Below, one piece after another: positions 19,033 through 32,390 of a DNA stretch of 32,390 bases. The position numbers and the translations under genes are program-made. Source of the stretch: Pseudomonadota bacterium (GTDB lineage Bacteria > Pseudomonadota > Alphaproteobacteria > Sphingomonadales > Sphingomonadaceae); contig JAFEEX010000053.1 of assembly GCA_018240895.1 (NCBI GenBank), positions 1-32,390 of the forward strand, read 5' to 3'. Under the pieces are notes generated by a model. It searched no databases. It saw nothing but the letters and a program-made list of their open reading frames with translations, and had not been told where the DNA came from. Numbering within the stretch: the first letter of the stretch is position 1; each line of letters begins with the position of its first letter.

Positions 19033-19557
19033 ATGTCGATGACTGACCAAACTTCAGCCGCGCCCCCGCCGGGGCCGATGGCAGGCGTGGTGATCACCGC
19101 CATCGTCGTGGTGCTGATCATCGCCTGGATCGCGATCGGGCTGCAATTCATGGCCGTCACCTCGCTGGTGGGCGGGTTCCTGTTCCTGTGGTACTGGGCC
19201 AACAACGAACAGCTTGAAATACGGCGGTTGCCGCCCGCGCTTATCGGTGCGGTGGTCGGGATCGGGATCGGCTGGTTCATGCTCTATGCCGCCACAAAAT
19301 TCGGCGGGGCAGGACTGGCCGCTGGCGTCGGCGTGCTGGTGCTGGCGCTTTATCTGGACGTGATCAAGGCCGTGCCGATGGTGGTCAACACCGCGACCAT
19401 GCTCTACGTCACCATTGCCGCCGCGCCCTTGGTGCAATTGCACGTCAATTGGACCGAGCTGGTGCTTTCAACGGTCATCGGCGGATTGTTCTTCGGCGGC
19501 GCGGTCGAAGGGTTGAAACGGTTGACGGCAAAAGCAACACCGGCACCCGGCGGTTAG
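19033..19557 (+). CDS. Hypothetical multi-pass membrane protein
   Basis: 174-aa protein of unknown function. Five or so hydrophobic helices can be read: about residues 16-38, 42-56, 68-86, 90-107, 110-134 and a last one at 140-158. A short proline-rich N-terminus (SAAPPPGPMAG) and a basic C-terminus (KRLTAKATPAPGG) flank them. I do not recognise the family. The ribosome binding site GGGAGAGGA abuts the ATG at 19033; a second in-frame ATG at 19039 has better spacing and may be the true start. Its stop codon overlaps the stop of the convergent 1714-aa gene by three bases (TTAG). Confidence 0.75.
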   Translation: MSMTDQTSAAPPPGPMAGVVITAIVVVLIIAWIAIGLQFMAVTSLVGGFLFLWYWANNEQLEIRRLPPALIGAVVGIGIGWFMLYAATKFGGAGLAAGVGVLVLALYLDVIKAVPMVVNTATMLYVTIAAAPLVQLHVNWTELVLSTVIGGLFFGGAVEGLKRLTAKATPAPGG

Positions 19558-22500
19558 CGGTTCAGGCCAAGCCACCCCAGCGTGCTGGTGTCAAACTTCA
19601 TCCGCAGCGTTGCGAACAGGCCCTCTTCCGTGGTCCGCGCCGCGGAAAAGTCCCGGTCGCGGAACCCGACAATGTTGTAACCGACCGTCAGAAGAACGTC
19701 GCGCGCCGGGGCAATGCCGATTTCCGGACCAAAGGCAAAGCTGGTGGTGTGATCGGACAGATTGGTGCGCACTGTTGCCGTGCCGCCAAATTCAAGCCGG
19801 TCACCCAGGCCGATGCGCACATCGAGCCCGCCGAACAGTGAGGTTCCCTGCAGATCAAGGTCATTGCTCTTGTCCAGACCGTATCGCACCGCACCGAACA
19901 GGCCGATCTCGGTCCGCTGGACGAATTCATCATCACCGTTGCCGTTGACCTGATAGCGGCTCTTGGGTGACCAGTTGGTCGATACGCTGCCGATGATCCG
20001 GGTCGATTGCATATCGCCAATGCCGCTGAGCGCGGTGCGGCCGCTGTTGGTTGCCATGGCGCCGTTGGCTCCGGTTACCTTGTCGCTGCGCAGTTCAACC
20101 TTGGTCAGGGTGGCGAAATCGGAATTGCTGGGGCGATGGGCAAATGCCAGGGCACCCGTAAGGACTTCCGTTGATGAGGCGTCGCTGCCATGGGCGCTGG
20201 TCCAGGTCACGCCCGATCCCACCATGCTGCCATCGCCAAGCTGACGGATCGCACCGAAAGTAACGCCCTTGCGCTTGGCAAATTCGCCGTCGCGCCATTC
20301 GCTGCGCAGGGTTACGGTCCAGCGGTCCTCGCGCCAGGCCGCACCGGCGGTGATTGCGGTGAAGTCTTCGGTCAGGGCACCGTTGGCGTTGATCTGGCCG
20401 CCGCTGGTCAGCGGGTGAGCGGGATTGATCACCCGCGCCAGATCGACACCGCCCAGAACCTTGGTACTCTCCAGCGATCCATCCAGCGAAAGGTGCCGGG
20501 TCACGTCAACACTCTGCGCCAGCCCGAACGAAGCGAAGCTGCGCTTGCCATATTCGGCAATGTCCTGTTCGCCCATTCCGCCGCTGAGACGCGCGCCGCG
20601 CCAGGGGGCCAGTTCAATGCCGATCCGCGCGGTGCGTGCATCGATCGCGCTGCCGCTGGCGATTTCATAAGTGCCGGTCAGCTTGGCGGCGTGTGTCAGG
20701 GCGTAACGCGCGCTGAACTGATAGCGGCTGGGAAGGTCAACCGATTGGGTCGAACCCAGCGCAATGCTGCCAGAGGCATCCAGCTCCAGCCGGTTGTGCA
20801 GCAGGCGGCGCGAGACCCCGGCGTCCAGCACGGTTGAGGAGGCAGTGGTGCCATCGGCCAGATGATCGTCAATCCGGCTGATTCCAGCGCGGAAATCGGT
20901 GGAAGCGGTGCGGTATTCGGTTTTCAGCTGCACGGCATCGCGGCGGGTATTGTCAGTCAGGCTGTTGTCGAGCCAGCCGCTGGCAATCAGCGACAGGTTG
21001 TCGTTGAGCGAATAGCGGGCATCGACACCAAATTTGCGGCGGCCGCTTTCAGCGCCATTGGCCTGTCCCACGCCATAGCCGCGATCCATCGAACGGGCAT
21101 AGGCGAGCACATCAAGCTTGCGGTCGTGATGCTCGGCCTCAACCAGCCAGGCGGTATTGGTGCCCAATTGCGCCGAATGGCTTGCCGCGAATTCTGCGCG
21201 CAGTTCGGTGTTCTGGCTGATCTTGGCCTTTACATCGACGCCGCCCAGTTCGGTGCGCGGACCGTTTCCGGTGTCGGTAAGGGCAGTGGCGCCAATCCGC
21301 AGCTTCCCCTTGGCCGTCGTCATATCAACTCGCACCCCGGCGTTGAGCGCGCCGGAAGCGACGTTGGTATCAACTTCATAGTCGGCGACAATGAACTGCG
21401 GGTTGAGATCGGCATCGCGGCTCAGCACCGGGGCCTTGAAGGTGATCGTGCCAGCCAGCAGATCAACGTCATAGTCGATGAAGCGCGTCAGCGTTTGTGT
21501 CGAGACGATCTTTTCTGACCGGAAACGGTCCCTGACCTCGATCGCGATGGTTTCGCTGTTGGCGATGATCGCCGGGCTGGACAACGCATAGGGGCCAGAG
21601 ATTCCCGCGCCCTGGATTTCATCGCGGCGGTGGGCCGAGGCGATCCGCGTGGCATAGGCCTGGGCATGAAGCCCGCCCATGTGCAGTTCACCCTTCACCC
21701 CGGTTCCGGTGCGTTGATAGCGGGCAAGCTGAGTCTGGTTGAATCCGGTCTGGAAATCACCAAACATCGCGAAGAATTCGCGGCTTTCAACGCGCACATA
21801 GAGCTTGTTGCGGCTGGCCGCATCAAACCGGCGGTCGGAACCATCTGCAAAGACGGTGTAATAGGCGCGCGGATCAATGGTGCCGAGCAACTGCGTGTCG
21901 GCGCGCTGCTTGGCGCTGTCATAGGCCAGGGTAACCAGGTACTTACCCAGGACGCGGCCCTTGGCATAGAAAGCGGTGCGCGCATGGTCACCCAGATCGC
22001 TGTCGAACTTACCGGTGCGCTGCATGGCATCGGCGACAGTCTTGGCGCCGACTGAACCTTCGGCCAGGCCAACCAGCGTCCACTTGATATCACCGGGCAC
22101 GACCCAGGCATTCAGCGTCTGGTGACGAAGCTGCTTGTTATCCGCAAAGTCGAAATCAAGCTGGACAGAGCCGGAAACCATTGTCGGCGCCAGTTCGACC
22201 AGAGCGATGCCGTCATCACCCTTGACCGTCCAGTGCGGCGTAGTGCGGCCAAGGCCGACCAGCGCACGGCTTTGCATCATGTCCAGTGATTCTGCGCTTT
22301 CATAAGGGGCGCTCAGCGAAAACTCGCCGGAGATGCCGGCGTGCACCGGATTCCCCTGACGGTCGCGGATCCGCAGCGCAATCACCGGGCGGGTCCGGCC
22401 ATCTGCAACCAGATGCGTCTGTTCCGGCACCACCTGCACATCAAAGGCAGTGGTGTTGAAATGCACATCGCGGGTCAGTTCAGCCGCAACCGTGCCATCG

Positions 22501-24698
22501 TGATTGATCACGCGCGCGGCAAGATGAGTGACCTCATTGGTAAGCGGGATTGCGCGCCAGCTGCTGACAGCCCAGGCCCCGTTGGGCGAACGGCGCATGG
22601 CGTCGAACGAAACGCGGTCAACCGGCTTGCCGTCCGCCATCAGTTCAACCTTCTGGTCGGGCTTGTGGCGGATCACCGCACGGACGACCGGCGCGCGCGG
22701 ATTGTGGTCCACTGCCGGGAACAGGAAAGCTGGCGGGCCATCGCCCATTGCCATCCAGTCGGTTTCAGCACCGGCGGCGACCCGATCGGCCCAGGCGGCA
22801 TCGTCGATTGCAATCGGTCCCTTGCCGGGTTGCAGCGCGGCGATGGTATGAACGGGCTTGTCCTTGCCGCCGTCAGCGCCGCCGTCAATGGCCTTGGCAT
22901 CGAGGCCGGCGTTCAGATGAGCGGCCTGCCGCCAGGTGGCCGGCAGCTCGGCATGAAAATCAGCAACGGCAAGGCTGCCGCCCTGGCCGCGAACAAAGCG
23001 CGAGCTGGCGCTGCCTGCTTCGCGGGTGGAACGGCCGCAGTTCACGAGCTTGCCACCTTCGGGCAGGGACTGTTCCTGCGCCGCGACAACATGAGTGCCG
23101 GGCACCACGCCATCCAGGTGATAGCGCCCTTCGGCGTCGGTGATCGCATAGCTGCCATCTTCCATCACCACCTGGACGCCCGGGACACCACGCCGATCGC
23201 CCGTGACGGTGCATCCGCCATCGGTGATGCGGCCGATGATGGTCATCCGGCTGGTCAGGTTGTCACCATCGATCTGGACCACGGCGCTGGTAAAGCTTTT
23301 GAGGCCGCGCGAATCGGTGGTTTCCACCTTGTTGAGCGCTTGCCCGGGAGCAGCGTCGGCCCGAACCGTCATGGCATAGGTCACCGTGCGGCTGCCGCCG
23401 CCGGGAATTGTGCCAAAGTTCACCGTCAGTGAGCTGCCGTCCGGCGCGATCGACAGGATCGAGGGATTCGCTGCGCCATCGATGCGCACGCTGTCCGGGC
23501 GCAGGCGAAGTTCCCGCGCTGCCACGTCGACCATGGTAACCGCGCGCTTGGCGTGCGCCGGATCCGGATTACGCGCGGTCACAGTGTAAAACACCACGTC
23601 GCCGGGCTGGGCATTGCGGCGCGATGCAATCTTGGTCAGCGTCACGCTTACGGGCGGACGATCAACCGGTACGTCAACCTGAACCGGCTGCGGACCGCTA
23701 AGAGTGAACGTGCCGCCCCACGACGCCGGGTTCAACACCAGTGCGCTGCCGTCGATCCGCGTCAAACCGGCCAGCTGTGCGGCATTGAGTGCGGAAGGCG
23801 CATGATAGGGGGCCGGCGGCTCAACCACAATTCGGTAGCTTCCCTGGGCGACCAAGGGAAAGCGGTATTCGCCAGAGGGAAGCTGGACAGTGTTGCCGGC
23901 TGCATCCGTGACGGCCTGGCCGGTATAGACTGTGGACGGCCACAGCGTAACGCCGTCGGGCGCATAGACCGCAGCGGGTGCACCGGTAGCTGCATCGACG
24001 ATTGAAACCTTTGCGCCGTCGACTGGCGATCCGTCCTCGCTATCGAAGACCAGGCCAAACGGGTCTGCCAGGATGTTGACGGTGGCTTCGGCAACCGGTG
24101 TCGACTGGCCGACCAATTGGGCAGACACGCGGATCTTGTCGCCCACCGCAACGCTAAGCCGGCAATCGCCGGAAACCGCAGCGGCAGGGATAGGCCGGGT
24201 CGCGATGCTGCCGGCGAAAATGCCTGTGTTGGGGCCGGTTTCGAAGACGTTGATCGTCTCCAAATCACCGCTGGATCCGGTCAGTACGACATTGATCGAA
24301 TCAACCGCCGCAGGATTGGTGTTGCCGGAAGCCAGGACGATGCGGAAATAGAAGGTGTCGCCGGCATGAAATTCTGAAGAGGGGCGGGCGGTCGTGGTCA
24401 ACGATGCCGGCTGGCTTAGTGTTCCGATCGCCGGCGCAGCAGCGCAGTGCGATGGAATGAAGCTGAACGCGGTCCCGCCTGTGGTCGCTTGAGCGAACGT
24501 CTCGATGTTTACCGGCTGGGGCAGAACATTGAACGCCACGGTATTTGACGTGACGGAAAAGCCCTGGCCCTGATTCTGCCACGTGGCTTGAGCCGTGTTG
24601 GTTACCGATTGGGCACGCGCCAACGGCCCGCCCAGTATCACCATCAAAAGGGCCAGCAACGCAATGGCGGCCTTCCTGATGATTACTGAACGGGTCAT
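19554..24698 (-). CDS. Large outer-membrane protein: Ig-like/DUF11 N-terminal region plus C-terminal beta-barrel
   Basis: 1714-aa exported protein, last gene of a four-gene operon. A signal peptide covers residues 1-29 (cleavage ARA/QS). Directly after it comes SVTNTAQATW...SNTVAFNV, a motif shared with two operon partners. A DUF11-type domain lies at about 350-480 (SVTLTKIASRRNAQPGDVVF), then a carboxypeptidase-regulatory/SdrD-B-like domain at about 483-545 (VVMEDGSYAITDAEGRYHLD). A conserved block follows (KGRVLGKYLVTLAYDSAKQR, FADGSDRRFD, SREFFAMFGDFQTG), known from large uncharacterised outer-membrane proteins of other bacteria. The last 500-600 residues alternate polar and hydrophobic residues in short strands, as in outer-membrane barrels. 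A beta-signal-like GLFATLRMKF ends at Phe1702, followed by 12 extra residues. Function is unknown; surface anchoring or export of the partners is inference. No clear ribosome binding site precedes the ATG. Confidence 0.85.
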   Translation of the reverse strand: MTRSVIIRKAAIALLALLMVILGGPLARAQSVTNTAQATWQNQGQGFSVTSNTVAFNVLPQPVNIETFAQATTGGTAFSFIPSHCAAAPAIGTLSQPASLTTTARPSSEFHAGDTFYFRIVLASGNTNPAAVDSINVVLTGSSGDLETINVFETGPNTGIFAGSIATRPIPAAAVSGDCRLSVAVGDKIRVSAQLVGQSTPVAEATVNILADPFGLVFDSEDGSPVDGAKVSIVDAATGAPAAVYAPDGVTLWPSTVYTGQAVTDAAGNTVQLPSGEYRFPLVAQGSYRIVVEPPAPYHAPSALNAAQLAGLTRIDGSALVLNPASWGGTFTLSGPQPVQVDVPVDRPPVSVTLTKIASRRNAQPGDVVFYTVTARNPDPAHAKRAVTMVDVAARELRLRPDSVRIDGAANPSILSIAPDGSSLTVNFGTIPGGGSRTVTYAMTVRADAAPGQALNKVETTDSRGLKSFTSAVVQIDGDNLTSRMTIIGRITDGGCTVTGDRRGVPGVQVVMEDGSYAITDAEGRYHLDGVVPGTHVVAAQEQSLPEGGKLVNCGRSTREAGSASSRFVRGQGGSLAVADFHAELPATWRQAAHLNAGLDAKAIDGGADGGKDKPVHTIAALQPGKGPIAIDDAAWADRVAAGAETDWMAMGDGPPAFLFPAVDHNPRAPVVRAVIRHKPDQKVELMADGKPVDRVSFDAMRRSPNGAWAVSSWRAIPLTNEVTHLAARVINHDGTVAAELTRDVHFNTTAFDVQVVPEQTHLVADGRTRPVIALRIRDRQGNPVHAGISGEFSLSAPYESAESLDMMQSRALVGLGRTTPHWTVKGDDGIALVELAPTMVSGSVQLDFDFADNKQLRHQTLNAWVVPGDIKWTLVGLAEGSVGAKTVADAMQRTGKFDSDLGDHARTAFYAKGRVLGKYLVTLAYDSAKQRADTQLLGTIDPRAYYTVFADGSDRRFDAASRNKLYVRVESREFFAMFGDFQTGFNQTQLARYQRTGTGVKGELHMGGLHAQAYATRIASAHRRDEIQGAGISGPYALSSPAIIANSETIAIEVRDRFRSEKIVSTQTLTRFIDYDVDLLAGTITFKAPVLSRDADLNPQFIVADYEVDTNVASGALNAGVRVDMTTAKGKLRIGATALTDTGNGPRTELGGVDVKAKISQNTELRAEFAASHSAQLGTNTAWLVEAEHHDRKLDVLAYARSMDRGYGVGQANGAESGRRKFGVDARYSLNDNLSLIASGWLDNSLTDNTRRDAVQLKTEYRTASTDFRAGISRIDDHLADGTTASSTVLDAGVSRRLLHNRLELDASGSIALGSTQSVDLPSRYQFSARYALTHAAKLTGTYEIASGSAIDARTARIGIELAPWRGARLSGGMGEQDIAEYGKRSFASFGLAQSVDVTRHLSLDGSLESTKVLGGVDLARVINPAHPLTSGGQINANGALTEDFTAITAGAAWREDRWTVTLRSEWRDGEFAKRKGVTFGAIRQLGDGSMVGSGVTWTSAHGSDASSTEVLTGALAFAHRPSNSDFATLTKVELRSDKVTGANGAMATNSGRTALSGIGDMQSTRIIGSVSTNWSPKSRYQVNGNGDDEFVQRTEIGLFGAVRYGLDKSNDLDLQGTSLFGGLDVRIGLGDRLEFGGTATVRTNLSDHTTSFAFGPEIGIAPARDVLLTVGYNIVGFRDRDFSAARTTEEGLFATLRMKFDTSTLGWLGLNR

Positions 24699-24717
24699 GG
24701 TGATTTTTCTAGGTTTC

Positions 24718-24748
24718 CCGGCGGCGTTGACTGGGTCGCAGCCGCCGG
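24718..24748 (-). other. Hairpin between the 378-aa gene and the large barrel gene
   Basis: CCGGCGGC (24718-24725) and GCCGCCGG (24741-24748) are perfect 8-bp arms around a 15-base loop, in the 57-base gap between the two genes. In the direction of transcription no T-run follows, so it is not a standard terminator. It could slow polymerase or protect the upstream message, giving more of the small partners than of the barrel protein. Confidence 0.45.
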
Positions 24749-24755
24749 TCAGACC

Positions 24756-25892
24756 TTATTGAACCTTTACCTGGAAACGCAGACCAACCGCGCTGTTTGC
24801 AGCAACGTTGCTTAGTGATCCCGAGATATTGGCAGGAGTTGCGCCAGCCTGAGCGGTGTAACCCGCATCAGCCGTTACCGCGGTGCCGCCAGAGCAGGTG
24901 GCCGAAGCTCCCGATCCGGTGACTGTCGCGTTCAACCAGATCGCGTTGGACCCGGCCGTATAGGCAACATAGGCCGGATAGGGCGAAACGGCCGATTGCG
25001 GCAGCGGGTCATTCACGCTGACGTTGGTGGCAGTTGCGGCGCCGGCAGCGTTGGCGACGATGATGCAGTATTCGATAACGGCACCCGGAATCGCCTTGGG
25101 ATTGGTGGTGCCGTCAATCGGATCGCTGATGATCGTCATGTTCTTGTTGACCGACAGCACCGGCGCGGAGACGGTGTAGTCACCCTTGGCCGAATGCTTG
25201 CCATCGTTGGCGGCGTCGCCCGCTACCACACCGGCTGCGTCACCGCAGACGTTGTCGATACCGGCGGTGTTCGCCGAAGCATTCTGGCAGGTCAGCACCG
25301 CTCCCTGAGTGCTGGCCACGCCGCCAGCTTCGGCCGTTCCCGTCAGCATGATACCGCCCACTTGAGCATTGGTGGCGGTGGACGGGATGTCGGCAACAAC
25401 CAGCAGCTTCACGGTCGCATCGGGTGCGATCTCGTCAAGATAGGTGATCTGCGTCACGCCAGATCCGCCGACGACTCCGGTGCCGTTGGGGTCAAGGTAG
25501 TATTTGACGTTGGTCAGCGAGGGCACAAACGCGGTGGTGGCACCGTGTTGTGCGGTCTGGCCGGTTGCCTGGGCTGTTGCGGCAAGCGCAAAGTCCAACG
25601 TGTCGTTTGAACTGTTTGTCAGGGTCCAGGTAGTGACGGCGTTGGTCTGCCCCGGAACCACCGTGGTGGTGGCCCCGGTGTTGGCGACCGCCAGCACGAC
25701 CTTGCGATCGACCGTCACCGTGTTCGATGCGGTCGTCCCGGTTTGCGCAACGCCGCCAACACTGTAGTTGACTGTTGCCGTGTTGACGATGTTGGTGCCG
25801 GCCAATGTACCTGCGGCAAGCGCGGGTGCCGCACTCGCCAAAAGCGCAGCGGCAAGCGATGCTGCCCCAACGCGTCTATAGTGAATGCTCAT
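24756..25892 (-). CDS. Secreted DUF11-type repeat protein, 378 aa
   Basis: Exported protein of unknown function. A signal peptide spans residues 1-26 (cleavage ALA/AG). The mature N-terminus GTLAGTNIVNTATVNYSVGG matches the 327-aa paralogue and the barrel protein. The central part carries DPNGTGVVGGSG and LLVVADIPSTA, which parallel the 327-aa protein's DSNNNGVYDPGTD and FVLVGLPASGA. The C-terminal domain (about 246-378) is DUF11-like (IPGAVIEYCIIVANAAGAAT, NVSVNDPLP) and ends in a beta strand FQVKVQ. Ser, Thr, Ala and Gly are abundant and charged residues rare, as in surface-layer or adhesin-like proteins. GGGGAAG lies 6 bases ahead of the ATG. The preceding gap is strongly AT-rich. Confidence 0.87.
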   Translation of the reverse strand: MSIHYRRVGAASLAAALLASAAPALAAGTLAGTNIVNTATVNYSVGGVAQTGTTASNTVTVDRKVVLAVANTGATTTVVPGQTNAVTTWTLTNSSNDTLDFALAATAQATGQTAQHGATTAFVPSLTNVKYYLDPNGTGVVGGSGVTQITYLDEIAPDATVKLLVVADIPSTATNAQVGGIMLTGTAEAGGVASTQGAVLTCQNASANTAGIDNVCGDAAGVVAGDAANDGKHSAKGDYTVSAPVLSVNKNMTIISDPIDGTTNPKAIPGAVIEYCIIVANAAGAATATNVSVNDPLPQSAVSPYPAYVAYTAGSNAIWLNATVTGSGASATCSGGTAVTADAGYTAQAGATPANISGSLSNVAANSAVGLRFQVKVQ

Positions 25893-25941
25893 TGTATACT
25901 TCCCCTATGCATATCTAATATTATAAATTTATATCAACATA
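25893..25941 (-). promoter_or_regulatory. AT-rich gap with TATAAT, possible internal promoter
   Basis: The 49 bases between the 158-aa and 378-aa genes are far richer in A and T than anything around them and contain a perfect TATAAT on the minus strand (25919-25924). A -35 element at the right distance is weak. It could be a second promoter for the 378-aa gene, or an RNA processing site within the operon. Confidence 0.35.
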
Positions 25942-26418
25942 CTATCGCACAACGGCATGATAGCTGACCATTCCCGATCCACCCGGGGCGATTGTCGGAA
26001 TCACCCAGCGGATATGCGTTACGTCAGCTTCGGTCGCGGGTCGGCTCGAACCATCGGCGGCAACCACCGTCAGATTGGCAAGCTGGCCCCAGGTCTTTCC
26101 GCCATTGACGGAAACCTGGCCATTGTCGGCAGGGTCGGCCACATAGACCACACCCTTGGGAAGGGGGTTGGTGACCACGAAATTATCGATCCTGGTCGCC
26201 CCGGCATTGCGATAGCCGGTTGTGAAGAGCAGCTTGTTGCCCGGCACCGCGCGGGTAACCGGTGCGAGCACGGTTTTTGTCTCGCCGCTCTCCGTGACGG
26301 TCTTTTCAATCTTGACGTCGCTTTGCAGCGCAACAGGCGCAGGCCCGGCGGCATAGGCCGCACCGGACAGTGCCAGGGCGGAAAAGAGGCCAACGATGGA
26401 AGCAATACGGAACTTCAT
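25942..26418 (-). CDS. Small secreted DUF11-type protein, 158 aa
   Basis: Exported single-domain protein, unknown function. A signal peptide covers residues 1-23 (MKFRIASIVGLFSALALSGA, cleavage AYA/AG). The mature part is one DUF11-like beta domain: VKIEKTVTESGETKTVLAP, VPGNKLLFTTGYRNAGATRI, FVVTNPLPKGVVYV, and a final strand GMVSYHAVVR. The VTNPLP and PGxxLxxTxxYxN features are the DUF11 signature. The start at 26418 is chosen because AAGGG lies about 8 bases upstream and it begins the signal peptide; a start at 26451 would overlap the upstream gene. It sits 29 bases after the 327-aa gene. Unlike its neighbours it lacks the NTA...SNTV N-terminal motif. Confidence 0.87.
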   Translation of the reverse strand: MKFRIASIVGLFSALALSGAAYAAGPAPVALQSDVKIEKTVTESGETKTVLAPVTRAVPGNKLLFTTGYRNAGATRIDNFVVTNPLPKGVVYVADPADNGQVSVNGGKTWGQLANLTVVAADGSSRPATEADVTHIRWVIPTIAPGGSGMVSYHAVVR

Positions 26419-26447
26419 TTTTGCAACCCTTTCAATGATATAAAATA

Positions 26448-27431
26448 TCAATTGATTTTTACTTTGAAGCTGATGGACTGATCGGCGGACCCGCCGGCGA
26501 CATTACCCAGGTTCACGTCGACGCCCGATGCCTGGCTCGCCTGACCGGCGTCCGTATCGGCGCTGTCAGTCAGCACGGCGGCGCCCAGTTTCAGCGTCCC
26601 CGCCTGATAGGTGGTGCCGGTCGGGATAACGTCAGTGATGTGCAGGCCGTTTGCCGTGCCGGAACCCGTCACGTGCGAGGCGATGGTGTATGTCACCACC
26701 GCGCCGGGAACCGGGGTCGTGCCGCCAAACGGATCGGCAATGACTGCCGATTTGATCAGCGTAACCGCGGCCAGGCTGGCGATGATCGCATCTTGACCGC
26801 TGGCAACGCCGGTTGAGCTGCCAACAACGGCATCCACCCCGCCAACGCCGCCATGAGACACCAGAGTACCCGGGGTTCCGTTGCCGATCGATGACGTTGC
26901 GGTCAGCTTGACCTGGCTGGTGGTGTTGTCGGTCGCGCCCGATGCGGGCAGGCCCACAAGCACGAACACCTTGATGGAACCGTCGGCGTTGATGAGCGGG
27001 GTGGCACTGCCGGTTGTATAGACAGTGTCGGTGCCCGGATCATAGACGCCGTTGTTGTTGCTATCGATAACGACCTGCTGGATCGTTCCGTTATAGGAAT
27101 TGCCGCTGACATTCGGATCAGCCGCAAGCGTGAAGGTGCTTGGCCCGTTGCCGGTGTTGGTGACCGAATAGGTCAGCACTGCCGGCGAAGACGACGCGGG
27201 AACCGGTGCGCTGTTAAGGCCGGCCACGGCAACGTCGATCAACTGATCCACAGTGACGGCAACCGTGTTGGAGGTGACCGTGTTGGTCGCCGAACCAGAG
27301 TTATAGGTAGCGGTCGCCGTGTTTTGAATCGAAGTTCCGGCGGGCACACCGCTGGCCAGCGCGGGGCTGGCTGCGACGGCAGCGGTAAGCGCAATTGTGG
27401 CGACGACAGGCTTGATAAGGTGACTGTTCAT
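26448..27431 (-). CDS. Secreted DUF11-type repeat protein, 327 aa (first gene of operon)
   Basis: Exported protein of unknown function. A signal peptide covers residues 1-26 (cleavage ALA/SG). The mature N-terminus GTSIQNTATATYNSGSA leads into TSNTVAVTVDQL. An acidic loop DSNNNGVYDPGTD (about 122-134) resembles calcium-binding loops of repeat proteins. The C-terminal 105 residues are DUF11-like (LIKSAVIADPFGG, VPGAVVTYTI, ITDVIPTGTTYQAGTLKLG) and end in SISFKVKIN. It is a paralogue of the 378-aa protein with the same order of blocks. Its ribosome binding site is poor (GGGGG only one base before the ATG). As first gene it should be driven from the 27432-27600 region. Confidence 0.87.
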   Translation of the reverse strand: MNSHLIKPVVATIALTAAVAASPALASGVPAGTSIQNTATATYNSGSATNTVTSNTVAVTVDQLIDVAVAGLNSAPVPASSSPAVLTYSVTNTGNGPSTFTLAADPNVSGNSYNGTIQQVVIDSNNNGVYDPGTDTVYTTGSATPLINADGSIKVFVLVGLPASGATDNTTSQVKLTATSSIGNGTPGTLVSHGGVGGVDAVVGSSTGVASGQDAIIASLAAVTLIKSAVIADPFGGTTPVPGAVVTYTIASHVTGSGTANGLHITDVIPTGTTYQAGTLKLGAAVLTDSADTDAGQASQASGVDVNLGNVAGGSADQSISFKVKIN

Positions 27432-27844: not shown

Positions 27845-28210
27845 ATGGCAAAACGCCCGGCCCCGTTCTCTCTCCGGCTTACATTCGAGCAGCGCGCCCG
27901 GCTAGAACGGGACGCCGGGGATATGTCCCTGAGCGCCTATATCCAGTCACGCCTCTTCGATACAGAAAATCCTACGCCGCGCCGCCGGGGCAAACGGCCC
28001 GTGAAAGATCATCAGGCCTTGGCTCAGGTTCTCGGGCTGTTGGGTCAATCCCGCTTATCGTCGAACCTGAACCAGTTGGCGCGATCTGCCAATTCCGGGA
28101 GCCTGCCTGTCACGCCGGACACGGAGGCCGCGCTTATGACGGCGGCGGCAGATATTCAGGAAATCCGCCGAATCTTGATCGAAGCCCTCAATCTGGAGGC
28201 GAGGCCATGA
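27845..28210 (+). CDS. mobC: MobC-like relaxosome accessory protein
   Basis: 121-aa basic protein of the plasmid mobilization MobC kind, which helps the relaxase melt and bind the transfer origin. The N-terminal part (FSLRLTFEQRARLERDAGDM, then SLSAYIQSRLF) reads as a ribbon-helix-helix type DNA-binding fold. A basic linker PRRRGKRPVKD follows, then the MobC-typical segment SSNLNQLARSANSGSLPVTP and a helical C-terminus. A GAGGGGG ribosome binding site lies 7 bases upstream. The stop overlaps the relaxase start (ATGA), so the two are translationally coupled. The symbol is given by family role; the exact subfamily is not established. Confidence 0.85.
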   Translation: MAKRPAPFSLRLTFEQRARLERDAGDMSLSAYIQSRLFDTENPTPRRRGKRPVKDHQALAQVLGLLGQSRLSSNLNQLARSANSGSLPVTPDTEAALMTAAADIQEIRRILIEALNLEARP

Positions 28211-29493
28211 TCGTCAAAGCCTCACAGCGGAGCGGCGCGAAGCAACTCGGGATGCACCTCCTGAAAACGGAGGAAAACGAACACGTTGAGATTCACGAGG
28301 TCAGCGGCTTCATGTCCGATGACCTGATGGGGGCAATGAAGGAAGCCCACGCCCTGTCCTTGGGGACCAAGTGCAGGCAATATTTGTTCTCCGTTTCGCT
28401 CAATCCGCCCTCCACTGAATCCGTCCGGCCAGAAGTATTTGAGCAGGCCTGCAATATGATTGAAGAGCGACTGGGCCTGACGGGCCAGCCGCGCATGATC
28501 GTATTCCATGAGAAAGAGGGCCGTCGCCACGCTCATGCGGTCTGGTCGCGGATTCACGCAGAAACCATGACCGCGAAACCGCTCCCATTCTTCAAGCAAA
28601 AGCTCAACGGCATCGCCAAGGAACTCTATCTTGAAAACGGCTGGTCGATGCCGGATGGATTCCGTGATCCCAACTTGCGCGATCCCCGCAATTTCACCTT
28701 GGACGAGTGGCAGCAGGCAAAACGCGCCCAGCTTGATCCTCGGGAACTCAAGGCGACCGTGCAGGATTGCTGGAACAGGTCCGACAATGGTGTAGCCTTC
28801 GCGAAGGCTCTGGAAGAACGCGGCCTGTTTCTTGCCCAAGGGGATCGGCGCGGCCACGTCGCGATGACTATTGATGGGGAGGTTTTCTCCCTGTCGCGTC
28901 TGATCGGCAAAAAGGGCAAGGATGTGACGGCGAAGCTTGGCGATCCCAAGTTAGCCAGAAGCGTAGCCGATACCGCCCGATATATCGGCGAAACCATCGC
29001 ACCGCGCCTGTCTCGCTATATCTCGGAAGCGAAGCGGTTGGCATCCAACGCCATGAAGCCGCTCAATGAGCAACGGCAGAATATGAAGGGGCAGCATCAG
29101 CAGGAGCGCAAGCTTCTGGCTGATAAACAGCAACAGCGTCATCTGGCGGAGCAACAGGCGCGGTCTGCCCGTGTCCGGACGGGCGCGAAAGGCGTCTGGG
29201 ATATTCTGACCGGACGCTATTTCAAGGTGCGGAAACAGAACGAAATGGAGGCGCATTTCAGCCTTCAGCGTGATCGCGCCCAAAGGCATGATCTGGTTTC
29301 CGCGCAACTCAAGGAACGGCAAACCCTGCAATCCCAGATTGTCGCCCAGCGTGAACGCAGTGCTCGGCAACTGCTCGGACTATATCGCGATGCGTCCCAA
29401 TATCGCCGTGTCATGCGCGACGGGCAGTTCGAACGAGGAAGTAGGGATCAATCCCGGTCATCTGCGCCGCGCGGTCCCGAACTGGGCAGGTAA
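28207..29493 (+). CDS. Relaxase / mobilization nuclease (MobA/VirD2-like domain)
   Basis: Nicks and leads the transferred DNA strand in conjugative mobilization. The 428-aa protein has the relaxase domain in its first 170 residues: MIVKASQRSGAKQL, YLFSVSLNPP, and the metal-binding histidine motif HEKEGRRHAHAVWSRIH with His101, His108 and His110. The place where VirD2/TraI relatives have the nicking tyrosine (L-x2-Y-L/I) reads LGMHLL, with His17. The middle part (DPRNFTLDEWQQAKRAQLDP, GDRRGHVAMTIDGEVFSLSR) is conserved in chromosomal and plasmid mobilization proteins of alphaproteobacteria. The C-terminus is a glutamine-rich coiled coil (QQQRHLAEQQARSAR). No helicase or primase domain is present, consistent with a mobilizable rather than self-transmissible element. 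Confidence 0.88.
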   Translation: MIVKASQRSGAKQLGMHLLKTEENEHVEIHEVSGFMSDDLMGAMKEAHALSLGTKCRQYLFSVSLNPPSTESVRPEVFEQACNMIEERLGLTGQPRMIVFHEKEGRRHAHAVWSRIHAETMTAKPLPFFKQKLNGIAKELYLENGWSMPDGFRDPNLRDPRNFTLDEWQQAKRAQLDPRELKATVQDCWNRSDNGVAFAKALEERGLFLAQGDRRGHVAMTIDGEVFSLSRLIGKKGKDVTAKLGDPKLARSVADTARYIGETIAPRLSRYISEAKRLASNAMKPLNEQRQNMKGQHQQERKLLADKQQQRHLAEQQARSARVRTGAKGVWDILTGRYFKVRKQNEMEAHFSLQRDRAQRHDLVSAQLKERQTLQSQIVAQRERSARQLLGLYRDASQYRRVMRDGQFERGSRDQSRSSAPRGPELGR

Positions 29494-29701
29494 GTCATTC
29501 TCGCCTGAAGCGGCAATCTGCGTGGTTCTGCGCGAGCGTCTCTGCCATTTACCTGATTTCTTCTGTCGCTTTTCCACCCCGCCGGGGCGCTGGTTGGGTC
29601 TTGTTATCCGACCATGAATGTCCGGGTGCAAGGCGCGGCTGCGCCGCTGGCCTTCTCCATATCCATTTCGCTTGGCGAGCAATGCACCTCATTCACGGCA
29701 C

Positions 29702-29760
29702 GGATTCCTGCCTCCTCAACGCGGCCCATCGGGGGCGGCGCAAGACAACAGGAGGAATCC
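29702..29760 (+). promoter_or_regulatory. Stem that sequesters the ribosome binding site of the 56-aa gene
   Basis: GGATTCCT (29702-29709) and CCT (29711-29713) can pair with AGGAATCC (29753-29760) and AGG (29750-29752), with one bulged G at 29710. The right arm contains the whole AGGAGG ribosome binding site and ends at the base before the ATG at 29761. Translation of the small gene could therefore depend on opening this stem, for example by an upstream translating ribosome or a bound protein. Confidence 0.5.
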
Positions 29761-29931
29761 ATGTTCAAAATGACCAAAGACGATCTGGCCAAGAAAACCG
29801 ACGCGCAACTCACCGCGCTGTTTCAGGAGACTAGCAAAGGCCTGATCGCCACCAAATCCGGCCTCGCATCGGCGCAATCGCTCTTGGTGATGATAAGCGC
29901 TGAAATCGCTCGGCGTGACCTGCGCCCGTAG
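29761..29931 (+). CDS. Small hypothetical protein (56 aa) downstream of the relaxase
   Basis: Short basic, helical protein starting MFKMTKDDLAKKTDAQLTAL and ending EIARRDLRP. Nothing identifies its function. The start at 29761 is supported by a strong AGGAGG 5 bases upstream; the frame stays open back to 29614 but that part is low quality and contains the hairpin. Its two helices (about 5-25 and 33-52) could form a small helical bundle. Position after mobC and the relaxase suggests an accessory of the mobilization module. The stop is 18 bases from the end of the convergent ardA. Confidence 0.6.
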   Translation: MFKMTKDDLAKKTDAQLTALFQETSKGLIATKSGLASAQSLLVMISAEIARRDLRP

Positions 29932-29949
29932 GCGCAGTGACGCGAGAGG

Positions 29950-30447
29950 TCAGCCGCACCTGTAAACGATGCGGCGACCAGAAACTGTGGTTTCGCTGTA
30001 GTCGCAGGCAAGATCGCGAGCAATCAGGTCATAGTCAAGATAGCAGGCGATGCGATCCGGGATGTCACCGAATAGCCCTTCATCTACAAACTGGCGGGCA
30101 AGTTCCGTCAGGCTGTCGATCTCGTAGAGGTCGATGTCGAGCCGGTCGGGATCACAATCGCGATCATAGCCGCACTCGCCGACTGCGATGATGAACCGGG
30201 TTTTCTCGTCGTCTCCCCATTCGTCGGCAAGGTTGATGAACCGAGCAATGTTGGCCTGATTGATGCCAAAGGCATCCGCGAAAGCGGCATCGAGGTCGTC
30301 GCCATCGATGAAATGAATCTCGAACTCCTCTATGGGCTGGCCGTAATCGTTCTGGGAGGCGCGGGCCTTGGCCTGATAATCGTCGAAGCTGTCTAAGTAG
30401 AAGCCTGTGGCGCTGATGTCATAGGGCTGTGCAAAGAATGTAGTCAT
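29950..30447 (-). CDS. ardA: Antirestriction protein ArdA
   Basis: 165-aa highly acidic DNA mimic that blocks type I restriction enzymes and helps mobile elements enter new hosts. Family features are the opening FFAQPYDISATGFYLDS, an Asp/Glu-rich middle (FEIHFIDGDDLDAAFADAFG, FINLADEWGDDEKTRF), and the C-terminal IPDRIACYLDYDLIARDLAC followed by a short tail. Length equals the plasmid and Tn916 types. The start at 30447 has GGAG 7-8 bases upstream; the frame is open further to 30645 but that extension is Arg/Ser-rich noise. Its ATG overlaps the ATG of a divergent small reading frame. It is not in the same operon as mobC and the relaxase, being on the opposite strand. Confidence 0.93.
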   Translation of the reverse strand: MTTFFAQPYDISATGFYLDSFDDYQAKARASQNDYGQPIEEFEIHFIDGDDLDAAFADAFGINQANIARFINLADEWGDDEKTRFIIAVGECGYDRDCDPDRLDIDLYEIDSLTELARQFVDEGLFGDIPDRIACYLDYDLIARDLACDYSETTVSGRRIVYRCG

Positions 30448-30682
30448 GTCCGAACTCCTTTCGCTGTTTCGTGAGGACGCGAAGGAGAGGGACCGGGGAA
30501 TAAGCCGGGAGGTCAGCCGGAAGGCGAAACAGGCAACACGGAAGCGAAGCGAACGGAGCGGGCAGCCTGTTGACCACACGGTGCGCCGGGCCATCGTCGC
30601 GGCATTAACTCGGGAAACGGCTGATGGAGAGTGGAGCAGCGGCAACCGTTCCAGCTTTCAGCGCGGTACGTTCAGTCCGTAA
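30446..30682 (+). CDS. Possible small basic protein divergent from ardA (78 aa)
   Basis: Open frame MSELLSLFREDAKERDRGIS onward, rich in Arg and Lys (SREVSRKAKQATRKRSE) and then VDHTVRRAIVAALTRE, which reads like a ribbon-helix-helix or accessory DNA-binding segment. The third-position GC content looks like that of a coding frame. Against it, no ribosome binding site is present, its start codon overlaps the ardA start codon on the other strand, and the last 25 bases overlap the end of the 235-aa gene. It could be a regulator of ardA or just a chance frame. Confidence 0.4.
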   Translation: MSELLSLFREDAKERDRGISREVSRKAKQATRKRSERSGQPVDHTVRRAIVAALTRETADGEWSSGNRSSFQRGTFSP

Positions 30683-31365
30683 TCGGCTTCAAGCATGTCG
30701 ATAATCTTGACCAACGCGCGGTAGATGCTGAGTTGGTTGGCTCCGAACCGATAATGTCCAGAAACAAGCTCCTCGGGCTGCAAATCTTCAAAGCGCCCTC
30801 GACGTTTTGCGGGCTCACCGTTGCGGAGGACAGTGACAGGATAGCGGAATGATCGACCTTCGCCTTCCCAGACGCCCCACGAGCTATAGTTCTGGATGTT
30901 GTCGTTATAGCACTCGTCGCCGATGATTGATTCCATTCGGATCAGCAGGTCGCGGATAGGGCCGATCTTGGCCCGCGTGTCGCGCACATAGCGGAAATGC
31001 TGCATACCTCCGCTTACCTCGTCGAGCTGCGATGAATACCAGTCATGTTCCGCTGCGGCTTTGCGCTTCAGCTCAGCGAAAACTTCGGCAGGGACGTCCT
31101 CGGGAGGGTCTTCAAGCTCTGCATAGGCTTCAACTTCATCTTCGACGAATGTGGCGCGATCTTCCCACAAATTGCTGTATTCGTTGGCCCAAGCGAGGAT
31201 CTTGTCCCTTACCGCAAGGGCAGGACCAAAATCCATCGCTTGGATTGCTAGATAACCTCTGGTTCCCTCGTCGATGTAATATTCCTGCATATCGGCATCA
31301 TTTGGCCACTCATCTTTCGCGGCAGACTTGATAGCTGCAAGAATATCGGCGGGAACATTGGTCAT
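30658..31365 (-). CDS. Hypothetical protein coupled to the type III restriction gene (235 aa)
   Basis: Unrecognised acidic cytoplasmic protein with no signal peptide or membrane segment. It begins MTNVPADILAAIKSAAKDEW and contains an acidic helical middle (EDPPEDVPAEVFAELKRKAA). The C-terminal part is richer in aromatic residues (YSSWGVWEGEGRSFRYPVTV) and ends IIDMLEADYGLNVPR. The start at 31365 has GGAG 11 bases upstream and lies 2 bases after the restriction gene stop; a TTG at 31374 would overlap that gene and has the GGAG too close. Tight spacing implies one transcript with the restriction subunit, so it may modulate or immunise against it (inference). Confidence 0.8.
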   Translation of the reverse strand: MTNVPADILAAIKSAAKDEWPNDADMQEYYIDEGTRGYLAIQAMDFGPALAVRDKILAWANEYSNLWEDRATFVEDEVEAYAELEDPPEDVPAEVFAELKRKAAAEHDWYSSQLDEVSGGMQHFRYVRDTRAKIGPIRDLLIRMESIIGDECYNDNIQNYSSWGVWEGEGRSFRYPVTVLRNGEPAKRRGRFEDLQPEELVSGHYRFGANQLSIYRALVKIIDMLEADYGLNVPR

Positions 31366-31367
31366 GT

Positions 31368-32390
31368 TCAGCAATGCTCCATAAGGTCGTCGATCTTCGT
31401 GGCCTTGATGTAGCTGGCCGGATTCTTGTCAACGGCGAGCGCCTTGAAGTGCGCTTCGCCACAGGCGATCTTCGCAGCTTCGTTGTCGCGGAGGTCGTCA
31501 GTGAACAGGCTGCCCTTCGTCTCGATAACGAAATAGAGGCGTTCACCGCCCTCAACCTGCACCAGTACCGCCCAATCGGGATTGTAAGTGCCGAGCGGCG
31601 TCGGGACTTTGAACCAGCCGGGCAGTTTGGCGTAAACCTTCACAGCCTCGTTCTTTTCGAGCTGTTCCGCGAAGGTGCGTTCGACGCCGCCGGAATCGTA
31701 AATGACGTGCTCGAACACGGATTTCTGCGTGTCCTGAAGCATATTCTTGAGGTAGCCGGTCAGTTCCTCCTGCTCGAACAGTTCCTGCGCGTAGAAATGG
31801 TCGTCGCCGACACGCTGGTATTTGATGCCGTCAACAAGCGCGAGGCGCTTGGTGCGGTTGATGGTTTCCGCCGCCAATTCAATGAAGGCTTGAGGGTTGC
31901 GCTTGAAGTCGCCAAGTCTGCCGCTCTCGGTCAGGATTGTGACGAGGCTGCGGCGGGTGAGCTGGGTGCGGTCCTGCAAGTCGGTCAGCACGTCAGGAAG
32001 GGCAATATCGCCTTCCTCAATCATCACAGGACCAGAGATCGAGGTTTCCTTGGCAATCACGCCGCCTTGACCGATGGCAAGGTCGGCTTTGCGGATGACC
32101 GCCTTCGCCTTGGTGATTGGCGCGGCATTGGCGATTGCCTTGGTGCAATCCTCGATAAGTTTGGCGTTGTCGAAATGAACGCGATAGGTCGTGCGATGCT
32201 TGATGCGGTCCCATAGCGCCTGAAATTCTGCGCTATGCAGGACTTCCTTGCGCACACGCACGGCCTTGCGGTCATCGGCGTTCTTTACGTCGAGCTTCCC
32301 TGCGATTTTCCGCAGAACTTCTTTGATTTGGGGAAGATGCGCCGCGTACTGGTCGGGGACGGTCAGCGTGTCCGTCGTCAGAACATTTGG
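31368..32390 (-). CDS. res: Type III restriction enzyme Res subunit, C-terminal part, truncated by window edge
   Basis: C-terminal 340 residues of a type III restriction endonuclease subunit, which cleaves DNA after ATP-driven communication between unmodified sites. The frame is open to base 32390 without a stop, so the helicase part lies outside. The PD-(D/E)xK nuclease is visible: YNPDWAVLVQ followed by YFVIETKGS, giving Asp...Glu-x-Lys. The preceding LTRRSLVTILTESGRL and QEELTGYLKNMLQDTQKSVF are typical of Res C-termini. The complete gene would be about 900-1000 codons. The partner methyltransferase (mod) is not in the window; it is usually upstream, which here means beyond the right edge. 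Confidence 0.88.
   Translation of the reverse strand, partial: PNVLTTDTLTVPDQYAAHLPQIKEVLRKIAGKLDVKNADDRKAVRVRKEVLHSAEFQALWDRIKHRTTYRVHFDNAKLIEDCTKAIANAAPITKAKAVIRKADLAIGQGGVIAKETSISGPVMIEEGDIALPDVLTDLQDRTQLTRRSLVTILTESGRLGDFKRNPQAFIELAAETINRTKRLALVDGIKYQRVGDDHFYAQELFEQEELTGYLKNMLQDTQKSVFEHVIYDSGGVERTFAEQLEKNEAVKVYAKLPGWFKVPTPLGTYNPDWAVLVQVEGGERLYFVIETKGSLFTDDLRDNEAAKIACGEAHFKALAVDKNPASYIKATKIDDLMEHC

Follow-up and report, generated by a model that had tools for sequence, protein, structure and literature searches.

What do four adjacent genes for secreted proteins with DUF11-type domains, the last of them encoding a predicted outer-membrane barrel, build at the cell surface? The question is raised by an operon on contig JAFEEX010000053.1 of assembly GCA_018240895.1 (Sphingomonadaceae, Alphaproteobacteria). 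The window, meaning the whole stretch analysed, lies in this contig of a draft genome (89% complete) and is 32,390 nucleotides in length. Genes are designated P4, P3, P2 and P1 in order of transcription, all on the minus strand; P5 designates a fifth gene type of related loci. By profile alignment, the C-terminal domain of P2, P3, P4 and P5 is in each case a DUF11 domain that breaks off at one common point, ahead of its last strands. Mature P1, P2 and P4 each start with residues that resemble the part cut off. The operon is fairly probably a self-assembling surface fibre or stalk, formed by donor-strand assembly and locked by a covalent bond that arises unaided. What is new is how the parts would fit together: a truncated DUF11 domain, a lent hairpin and a residue triad split across proteins.

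Gene order and conservation

P4 (26448–27431), P3 (25942–26418), P2 (24756–25892) and P1 (19554–24698) encode proteins of 327, 158, 378 and 1714 aa. Intergenic gaps are 29 (P4/P3), 49 (P3/P2) and 57 (P2/P1) bases. By eye, a Sec-type signal peptide is recognisable at the start of each product. An earlier reading made from the letters alone (the sequence-only reading) had described the strand, the gaps and the signal peptides correctly. The start of P3 is taken as the ATG at 26418; the mechanical list of open reading frames (ORFs) uses instead a TTG that overlaps the end of P4.

Eighty loci were kept from 341 relatives (Novosphingobium, Erythrobacter, Qipengyuania, Porphyrobacter and others) in one scan of genome contigs. 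Genes P4, P3 and P2 lie ahead of P1 in 74 of the 80, including a few with broken or cut frames (L052, L064, L067, L081) and loci at contig ends (such as L043 and L047); the other six have less than 2.6 kb of upstream DNA. The same three genes precede P1 in 9/9 loci of the genus with a full-length-type P1 and upstream DNA; a tenth region (L024) holds only a core-domain relative of P1 and none of the small genes. P1 was matched in 11/41 genomes, the own genome counted. Across the 195 genomes of the genus, the P1 profile matches 67 and the P4 profile 61. P4 is present in 59/59 genus genomes with a substantial P1 match (8 of the 67 are left out here as core-domain or fragment matches only) and is matched alone in two more. 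Within the order, P4 occurs in 72/296 genomes, all 72 belonging to the family of the window. The four-gene arrangement is beyond chance, because the same order is kept in related loci; co-occurrence in relatives had been expected in the sequence-only reading.

Truncated domains and putative donor hairpins

The solved DUF11 domain, renamed CLIPPER in the passages of PMC12617251 used here, has an intramolecular Lys715–Asn806 bond, with Asp748 as the presumed catalyst; its last strand comes after the Asn. The DUF11 profile used here was built on 42 domains, taken from five long proteins outside the genus. It has 135 positions, with the Asn at position 107.

P4 consists of a putative donor hairpin (residues 27–68, 27228–27353; Asn37 at 27321–27323), one Ig-like domain and a C-terminal truncated DUF11 domain, the putative acceptor (residues 217–327, 26451–26783; Lys227, Asp267). 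Its hairpin aligns to the end of the profile; the match of its acceptor stops at about position 96 of 135. P2 has the same layout, with a hairpin at residues 27–68 (25689–25814; Asn37 at 25782–25784), an Ig-like domain and a truncated DUF11 domain at residues 238–378 (24759–25181; Lys250, Asp295). P3 is a single truncated DUF11 domain without donor hairpin. P1 has a putative donor hairpin at residues 31–62 (24513–24608; Asn34 at 24597–24599) and an internal complete DUF11 domain at residues 345–485 (23244–23666; Lys356, Asp391, Asn456).

C-terminal domain matches, counted at an independent E-value (i-E) below 0.01, come from 75 P2, 76 P4, 52 P5 and 75 P3 proteins. They end at median profile positions 96 (P2), 96 (P4), 91 (P5) and 86 (P3); in a separate run the medians were 96 (P2), 88 (P3), 96 (P4) and 77 (P5). 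Position 107 is reached by 3/61 matches of P2, 0/73 of P4, 1/26 of P5 and 1/61 of P3, 5/221 overall. Internal DUF11 domains reach it in 80/80 (P1) and 35/55 matches (P5). The beta-sandwich complete in one chain, by which DUF11/CLIPPER is recognised, is thus found in the internal domains of P1 and in many of P5, and is lacking in the C-terminal domains of P2–P5.

Family assignments depend on the model used. DUF11 (PF01345, cut-off 24.6 bits) is matched by P3 at 29.3 bits and by P1 at 25.6 bits (residues 353–462); P4 stays under the cut-off at 18.7 bits, and nothing in Pfam matches P2 at E ≤ 0.1. Against NCBIfam TIGR01451, whose cut-off of 24 bits both pass, P2 scores 27.2 bits and P4 29.6. The description of the small proteins as DUF11 proteins in the sequence-only reading is therefore right for P3 by Pfam and for P2 and P4 by TIGR01451, and goes beyond Pfam for the latter two. 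No meaningful relative in the PDB was found for the P1 internal DUF11 domain, for whole P1 or for the P4 profile.

The stretch at the mature N-termini of P1, P2 and P4 has the form I-x-N-T-A-x-A-x-Y ... S-N-T-V-x-V. When the P4 N-terminus was appended to the truncated domains, the mean gain was 8.4 (P2), 12.3 (P4), 3.9 (P5) and 8.9 bits (P3), and the match extended to position 131. Gains in the same order were 2.6, 6.5, −0.7 and 3.1 bits with the P2 N-terminus and 1.4, 3.9, −0.7 and 1.4 bits with that of P1. Averages for shuffled donors are all below zero, at −0.9 to −4.4 bits (P4 shuffles −2.7 to −3.4). Segments of similar length taken as controls within these proteins (residues next after the hairpin in P2 and P4, residues 111–146 in P1) give −0.3 to −4.7 bits, the 42 residues after the P4 hairpin −2.9 to −4.0 bits. 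On its own the P4 N-terminus matches the end of the profile (median 89–131), with i-E < 0.01 in 22/76 proteins, nine of these matches starting at position 90 or later. A split-domain joint between subunits is held to be likely.

With its own N-terminus appended, P4 scored 26.7 bits against DUF7619, just below the cut-off of that model. A PDB search with the joined-sequence profile gave weak pilin matches only (4hsq, E 0.091; 4hss, E 0.16; 7woi, E 0.2), to which no evidential weight is given; the unjoined profile gave none. A search for natural two-subunit fusions showing the predicted junction gave one weak match, which lacked that junction; three more regions held none by eye. In a Pacificitalea protein of 880 aa, inspected by eye only, the tail of a complete internal DUF11 domain runs into another Ig-like stretch, in the predicted order.

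The Lys-Asp-Asn triad

Lys and Asp of the truncated domains are each conserved in 75/75 P2, 52/52 P5 and 73/76 P4 proteins. No partner Asn stands at the expected place in their own chains. An Asn is present in the hairpins: Asn37 in 75/75 P2 and 70/76 P4 (3 Ser, 3 gaps), Asn34 in 76/80 P1 (3 gaps, 1 Gln). The gaps and the Lys/Asp exceptions of P4 are cut, short or apparently frameshifted ORFs, the Lys/Asp exceptions being two short and one frameshifted-looking. In the internal domain of P1, Lys, Asp and Asn are each present in 79/80 proteins; the single exception (L102) is without all three. P3 lacks the hairpin motif in 69/75 and has Asn in place of the Asp in 71/75, so a P3 joint should not become covalent. 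Judged by the triad of DUF11/CLIPPER, the set is whole inside P1, split between the truncated domains of P2, P4 and P5 and the donors of P1, P2 and P4, and broken in P3. A covalent Lys–Asn joint between subunits is judged somewhat more probable than its opposite.

The C-terminal residue was considered as a bond partner and dropped because it is not conserved: Asn occurs there in only 42/75 P2, 29/76 P4 and 18/52 P5 proteins. Asn or Asp together occur in 59/75, 60/76 and 22/52, respectively, which leaves such a partner conceivable.

L102 (Porphyrobacter sp. IPPAS B-1204) is a second copy of the operon, on another contig of the assembly that also yielded L073. All three triad residues (Lys, Asp and Asn) are lost from its P1 internal domain, and its P4 donor has Ser for Asn; by these changes it may be a non-covalent version.

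In P2, Cys276 (25065–25067) and Cys333 (24894–24896) are invariant in 75/75 truncated domains. A similar Y-C motif is seen in several P5 sequences. A disulfide beside the isopeptide is possible on this basis.

The fifth gene type

P5 is present in 47 of the 60 loci with room for it (5 kb or more on the upstream side and 2.3 kb or more on the downstream side) and was not found in the other 13. It has at least 366 codons and a weak P2-like match at the C-terminal end. In 37 of the 47 loci it lies after P1 on the same strand, often overlapping P1 by 4 bases; in five it lies upstream and in five downstream on the opposite strand. N-terminal parts vary: among 10 representatives compared with Pfam, P_proprotein was found in two, CshA_NR2 in one and Calx-beta in one (under the cut-off), and no family was named in the rest. 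An internal DUF11 domain was matched to at least position 106 of 114 in 6/10 and SpaA_3 was found in 2/10, all before the C-terminal domain.

In the window no P5-type gene adjoins P1. Another contig of the same genome (C37) encodes two unlinked proteins of 858 aa (L115, 2373–4949) and 303 aa (L116, 1962–2873), both ending in the same kind of truncated DUF11 domain as P5. The start of the 858-aa protein presumably resembles DUF4347.

This gene type, with its head domains, was missed in the sequence-only reading. The view given there, that the system consists of unrelated parts, is given up, because P1–P5 all have DUF11-type domains and the one at the end of P2–P5 is cut at a common point.

Weighing of the proposed joint

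Several observations tell against a joint between subunits and its lock. Alone, the P1 and P2 donors are not significant (i-E < 0.01 in 0/80 and 0/75), and with P5 acceptors each stays at −0.7 bits, though their shuffles stand at −2.3 and −4.0. Ser replaces the donor Asn in three full-length P4 proteins, and Gln replaces it in one P1. With the Pfam DUF11 model, joining donor and acceptor brings little or no gain (22.8 vs 23.4 bits for the window); in another run the P4 domain goes from 23.2 to 22.8, 21.8 or 25.3 bits, P2 from 22.6 to 20.0 or 22.5 and P3 from 30.3 to 32.0, and a reversed control peptide stands at 20.7 bits and lengthens the alignment too. Foldseek lists integrins, complement and similar proteins for the P4 model; the donor-strand pilin SafDAA-dsc stands at rank 35. 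That AlphaFold2 model is of the monomer, with a predicted local distance difference test score (pLDDT) of 93.1, hairpin strands between residues 34 and 60 and a last strand at 318–326. Its hairpin has a pLDDT of 96–98, which fits self-completion of a single chain equally well.

Self-completion would make P2 and P4 circularly permuted DUF11 proteins, the hairpin of each filling its own groove; they would be closed coat subunits, and only P5 and P3 would pair with P1. It would predict identical conservation of the triad, and the monomer model, confident from about residue 30 with the hairpin within, is in line with it. The pattern of ends is that of a two-ended chain, however: an acceptor is present in P5 and P3 without an evident donor, and P1 has a donor and no C-terminal acceptor. 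The P4 donor also lifts the scores of P2, P3 and P5 acceptors. Closed monomers are held to be unlikely.

A non-covalent or unrelated coat would suit the scarcely rising Pfam scores and the view of P4 by Foldseek as mainly tandem Ig-like domains. DUF11 would then be an ordinary stalk module, the N-terminal motif a part of the first Ig-like domain, and P1 autotransporter-like. This is very unlikely in view of the conserved split of Lys/Asp and Asn and of the shuffled and other-segment controls; moreover, residues 67–218 of the P4 model already hold a full strand set for the first domain, on our reading of the strand list.

P1 and its predicted barrel

An AlphaFold2 model of P1 residues 645–1714, made with 71 relatives, has a pLDDT of 79.4 and a predicted template-modelling score (pTM) of 0.75. 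About 30 strands of at least 8 residues are predicted from about residue 1100 onward; the C-terminal barrel is placed at residues 1100–1714 (19557–21401). Foldseek gave 141 matches in the PDB at E ≤ 0.001. The best 50 of the 141 are outer-membrane barrel proteins (SlpA, LptD, TonB-dependent receptors, SprA, FimD and others), bar ApoB100. Template-modelling scores of these matches are low, about 0.1–0.2, and count against the assignment. A barrel-type protein with a predicted barrel-like fold and without a specific known family is supported. The sequence-only reading would have fallen with a missing barrel or with genes that do not occur together in relatives, and neither was seen. It had placed the barrel at about 1000–1702, nearly the right range; its surface system with the barrel as probable anchor is likewise supported.

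Pfam finds no family in P1 above cut-off beyond DUF11 and a CarboxypepD_reg/SdrD_B-like stretch (residues 499–542, 23073–23204). SdrD_B is sub-threshold there (24.4 vs 29.7 bits) and CarboxypepD_reg passes on the same residues. The N-terminal Ig/DUF11 and SdrD_B-like region of the sequence-only reading therefore stands as to DUF11 and is to be amended as to SdrD_B.

Three known routes were considered for P1 and dropped. No usher family was matched at E ≤ 0.1. For two-partner secretion (type Vb), no TpsB/TpsA-type family was matched in the four proteins at E ≤ 0.1, and about 30 strands are predicted vs 16. For a classical autotransporter (type Va), no such family was matched at E ≤ 0.1, and the predicted barrel is far larger than 12 strands.

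P1 residues 870–1181 (21156–22091) are common to barrel-type proteins of other taxa; pieces of them were matched by tblastn both on plasmids from other genera and in genomes from other families. Plasmid-record proteins of other genera share them in 23 records, one of them Novosphingobium; the labels on these relatives include TonB-dependent receptor, OmpA family and hypothetical. In Pelagibacterium, Sinorhizobium, Croceibacterium and Eleftheria (L111–L114) a protein like P1 870–1181 follows right after a very long protein, labelled hypothetical, DUF11, OmpA or SdrD_B-like; the long proteins have 9, 14, 12 and 6 DUF11 domains, respectively. Several small DUF11/NEW3 genes, some of them seemingly cut, lie on an Acinetobacter haemolyticus plasmid together with a P1-like gene of 2008 aa, an OmpA gene and a DUF11 gene of 978 aa; the last has, by eye, the same kind of end.

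The P1 profile matches 11/337 genomes of the class and 58/398 of the phylum, the own family counted; many matches cover part of P1. Fourteen regions were chosen from these. In each of the 12 that hold upstream DNA, P1 is preceded by a P3-type gene and by one or two genes of P2/P4 type. Among them, one locus reads P4-P3-P2-P1-P5, one P5-P4-P3-P2-P1, and one shows P3-P2-P1 only.

Could P1 be chiefly a secretion pore for P2–P5, in the manner of two-partner secretion, with DUF11 as export signal and polymerisation secondary? The large predicted barrel of about 30 strands speaks for it, as do the related barrel-type proteins directly after giant DUF11 proteins in four other genera and the tip-type proteins that lie far from the operon and have the same C-terminal domain. 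P1 has, on the other side, no match to POTRA, FhaC, usher or autotransporter families at E ≤ 0.1 in the profile scan, and export alone leaves a donor hairpin with a conserved Asn in P1 unexplained. A role chiefly as pore is rather unlikely. Export of subunits through P1 is a possibility somewhat short of an even chance. The likeness to two-partner secretion drawn in the sequence-only reading is replaced: donor-strand assembly as in chaperone-usher pili is the closer working analogy.

Proposed assembly

The C-terminal DUF11 (CLIPPER) domain of a secreted subunit would end just short of its last two strands. The next subunit would lend the missing strands as an N-terminal hairpin with a motif like I-x-N-T-A. 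Filling of the groove would place the hairpin Asn beside the Lys and the catalytic Asp of the acceptor, so that a Lys–Asn isopeptide bond would form by itself and lock the joint. Proteins with an acceptor and no donor would start chains: P5 as a tip protein, with a head domain that may serve adhesion, and P3 with a non-covalent joint. P2 and P4, having both, would be links. P1, with its donor hairpin at the N-terminus and its predicted barrel at the C-terminus, would end the chain and hold it in the outer membrane; the barrel may also export the subunits. A chain is the simplest use of this layout of donors, acceptors and triad. Computation shows the order of the genes, the truncation, the donor-like N-termini, the divided triad and a barrel-like predicted fold; contact between subunits, the covalent bond, the length of the fibre, its route of export and adhesion are inferred. 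A true multi-copy fibre and a short stalk are given equal chances.

On a wider view, tentatively and at slightly less than even odds, the operon represents an undescribed class of fibre in several families of one phylum. Such a fibre would have truncated DUF11 subunits completed by lent hairpins, isopeptide welds, no chaperone, usher or sortase, adhesin tips that can be exchanged and whose genes lie inside or outside the operon, and a covalent root in a barrel that is possibly also the exporter. If the reading is right, split isopeptide domains, the principle of SpyTag/SpyCatcher, would be used in nature for fibres of environmental bacteria, e.g., Novosphingobium and Erythrobacter. Truncated DUF11 proteins would gain a function, and known surface fibres a further assembly route. 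Some barrel proteins whose present label is TonB-dependent receptor or OmpA family would have a suggested role, and a source of new covalent tag pairs would be available.

Neighbouring genes

A plus-strand ORF of 174 codons (19033–19557) overlaps the end of P1 by 4 bases; Pfam gives no match for it at E ≤ 1e-5. On its upstream side the operon has as neighbours a MobA/VirD2-type relaxase (28207–29490), an ArdA-like antirestriction protein (29953–30645) and a protein with an RE_endonuc endonuclease domain (31371–32390). Guanine-plus-cytosine content is lower in this stretch (28207–32390; 0.565–0.586 in 2-kb windows). The stretch is probably a mobile element beside the operon.

Comparison with known systems

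Among the literature matches listed, none describes this operon or a polymer of naturally split DUF11 domains; the coverage leaves out all bioRxiv preprints and most journals behind a subscription. In the passages available, PMC13082335 concerns a different fibre and PMC12282271 merely mentions DUF11.

In chaperone-usher pili the tip adhesin consists of a head and an acceptor without donor, and an outer-membrane barrel protein stands at the base. An incomplete Ig-like subunit is filled there by the N-terminal extension of the next subunit, according to passages of PMC9715654. The operon resembles these pili in its Ig-like subunits with a truncated domain, a putative N-terminal donor, a putative headed tip and a predicted barrel at the base. 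It differs in that a hairpin instead of a single strand would be lent, in the putative base donor lying within the barrel protein, in a probable covalent lock and in DUF11 subunits. No PapD-type chaperone was found among the four proteins or the ten neighbouring ORFs scanned, the rest of the genome not being searched, and FimD is one barrel among many in the Foldseek matches listed for P1. The operon is not counted as a chaperone-usher member because neither usher nor PapD was matched in what was scanned. Sortase-assembled pili have a C-terminal sorting signal and a sortase. In P2, P3 and P4 a beta strand is followed directly by the end of the protein, and inspection by eye shows neither an LPXTG motif nor a tail; no search aimed at a sortase was made.

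The archaeal thread of Sulfolobus acidocaldarius (PMC9715654) likewise has donor-strand complementation and a proposed inter-subunit isopeptide bond. That bond runs from Asn57 to the N-terminal amine of subunit n+2 and is not Lys–Asn; the passages on this thread name neither DUF11 nor a barrel anchor.

Type V pili and TasA fibres differ from this operon in subunit folds, anchoring and maturation. We know of no DUF11 split in either. They are alike in being strand-exchange fibres, and Mfa5 has an isopeptide bond (passages of PMC7835359, PMC9674648).

The closest domain is DUF11/CLIPPER itself (PMC12617251), with the same Lys-Asp-Asn triad (Lys715, Asp748 and Asn806 there). In the passages of that paper the bond is intramolecular, within one chain; in this operon the Lys and Asp lie at the C-terminus of one protein and the Asn at the N-terminus of a second one. 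Covalent rejoining of a split domain is known from SpyTag/SpyCatcher and like isopeptide domains (passages of PMC6539128, PMC5487036, PMC5333627). Those are engineered, whereas the operon would encode a natural polymer built likewise.

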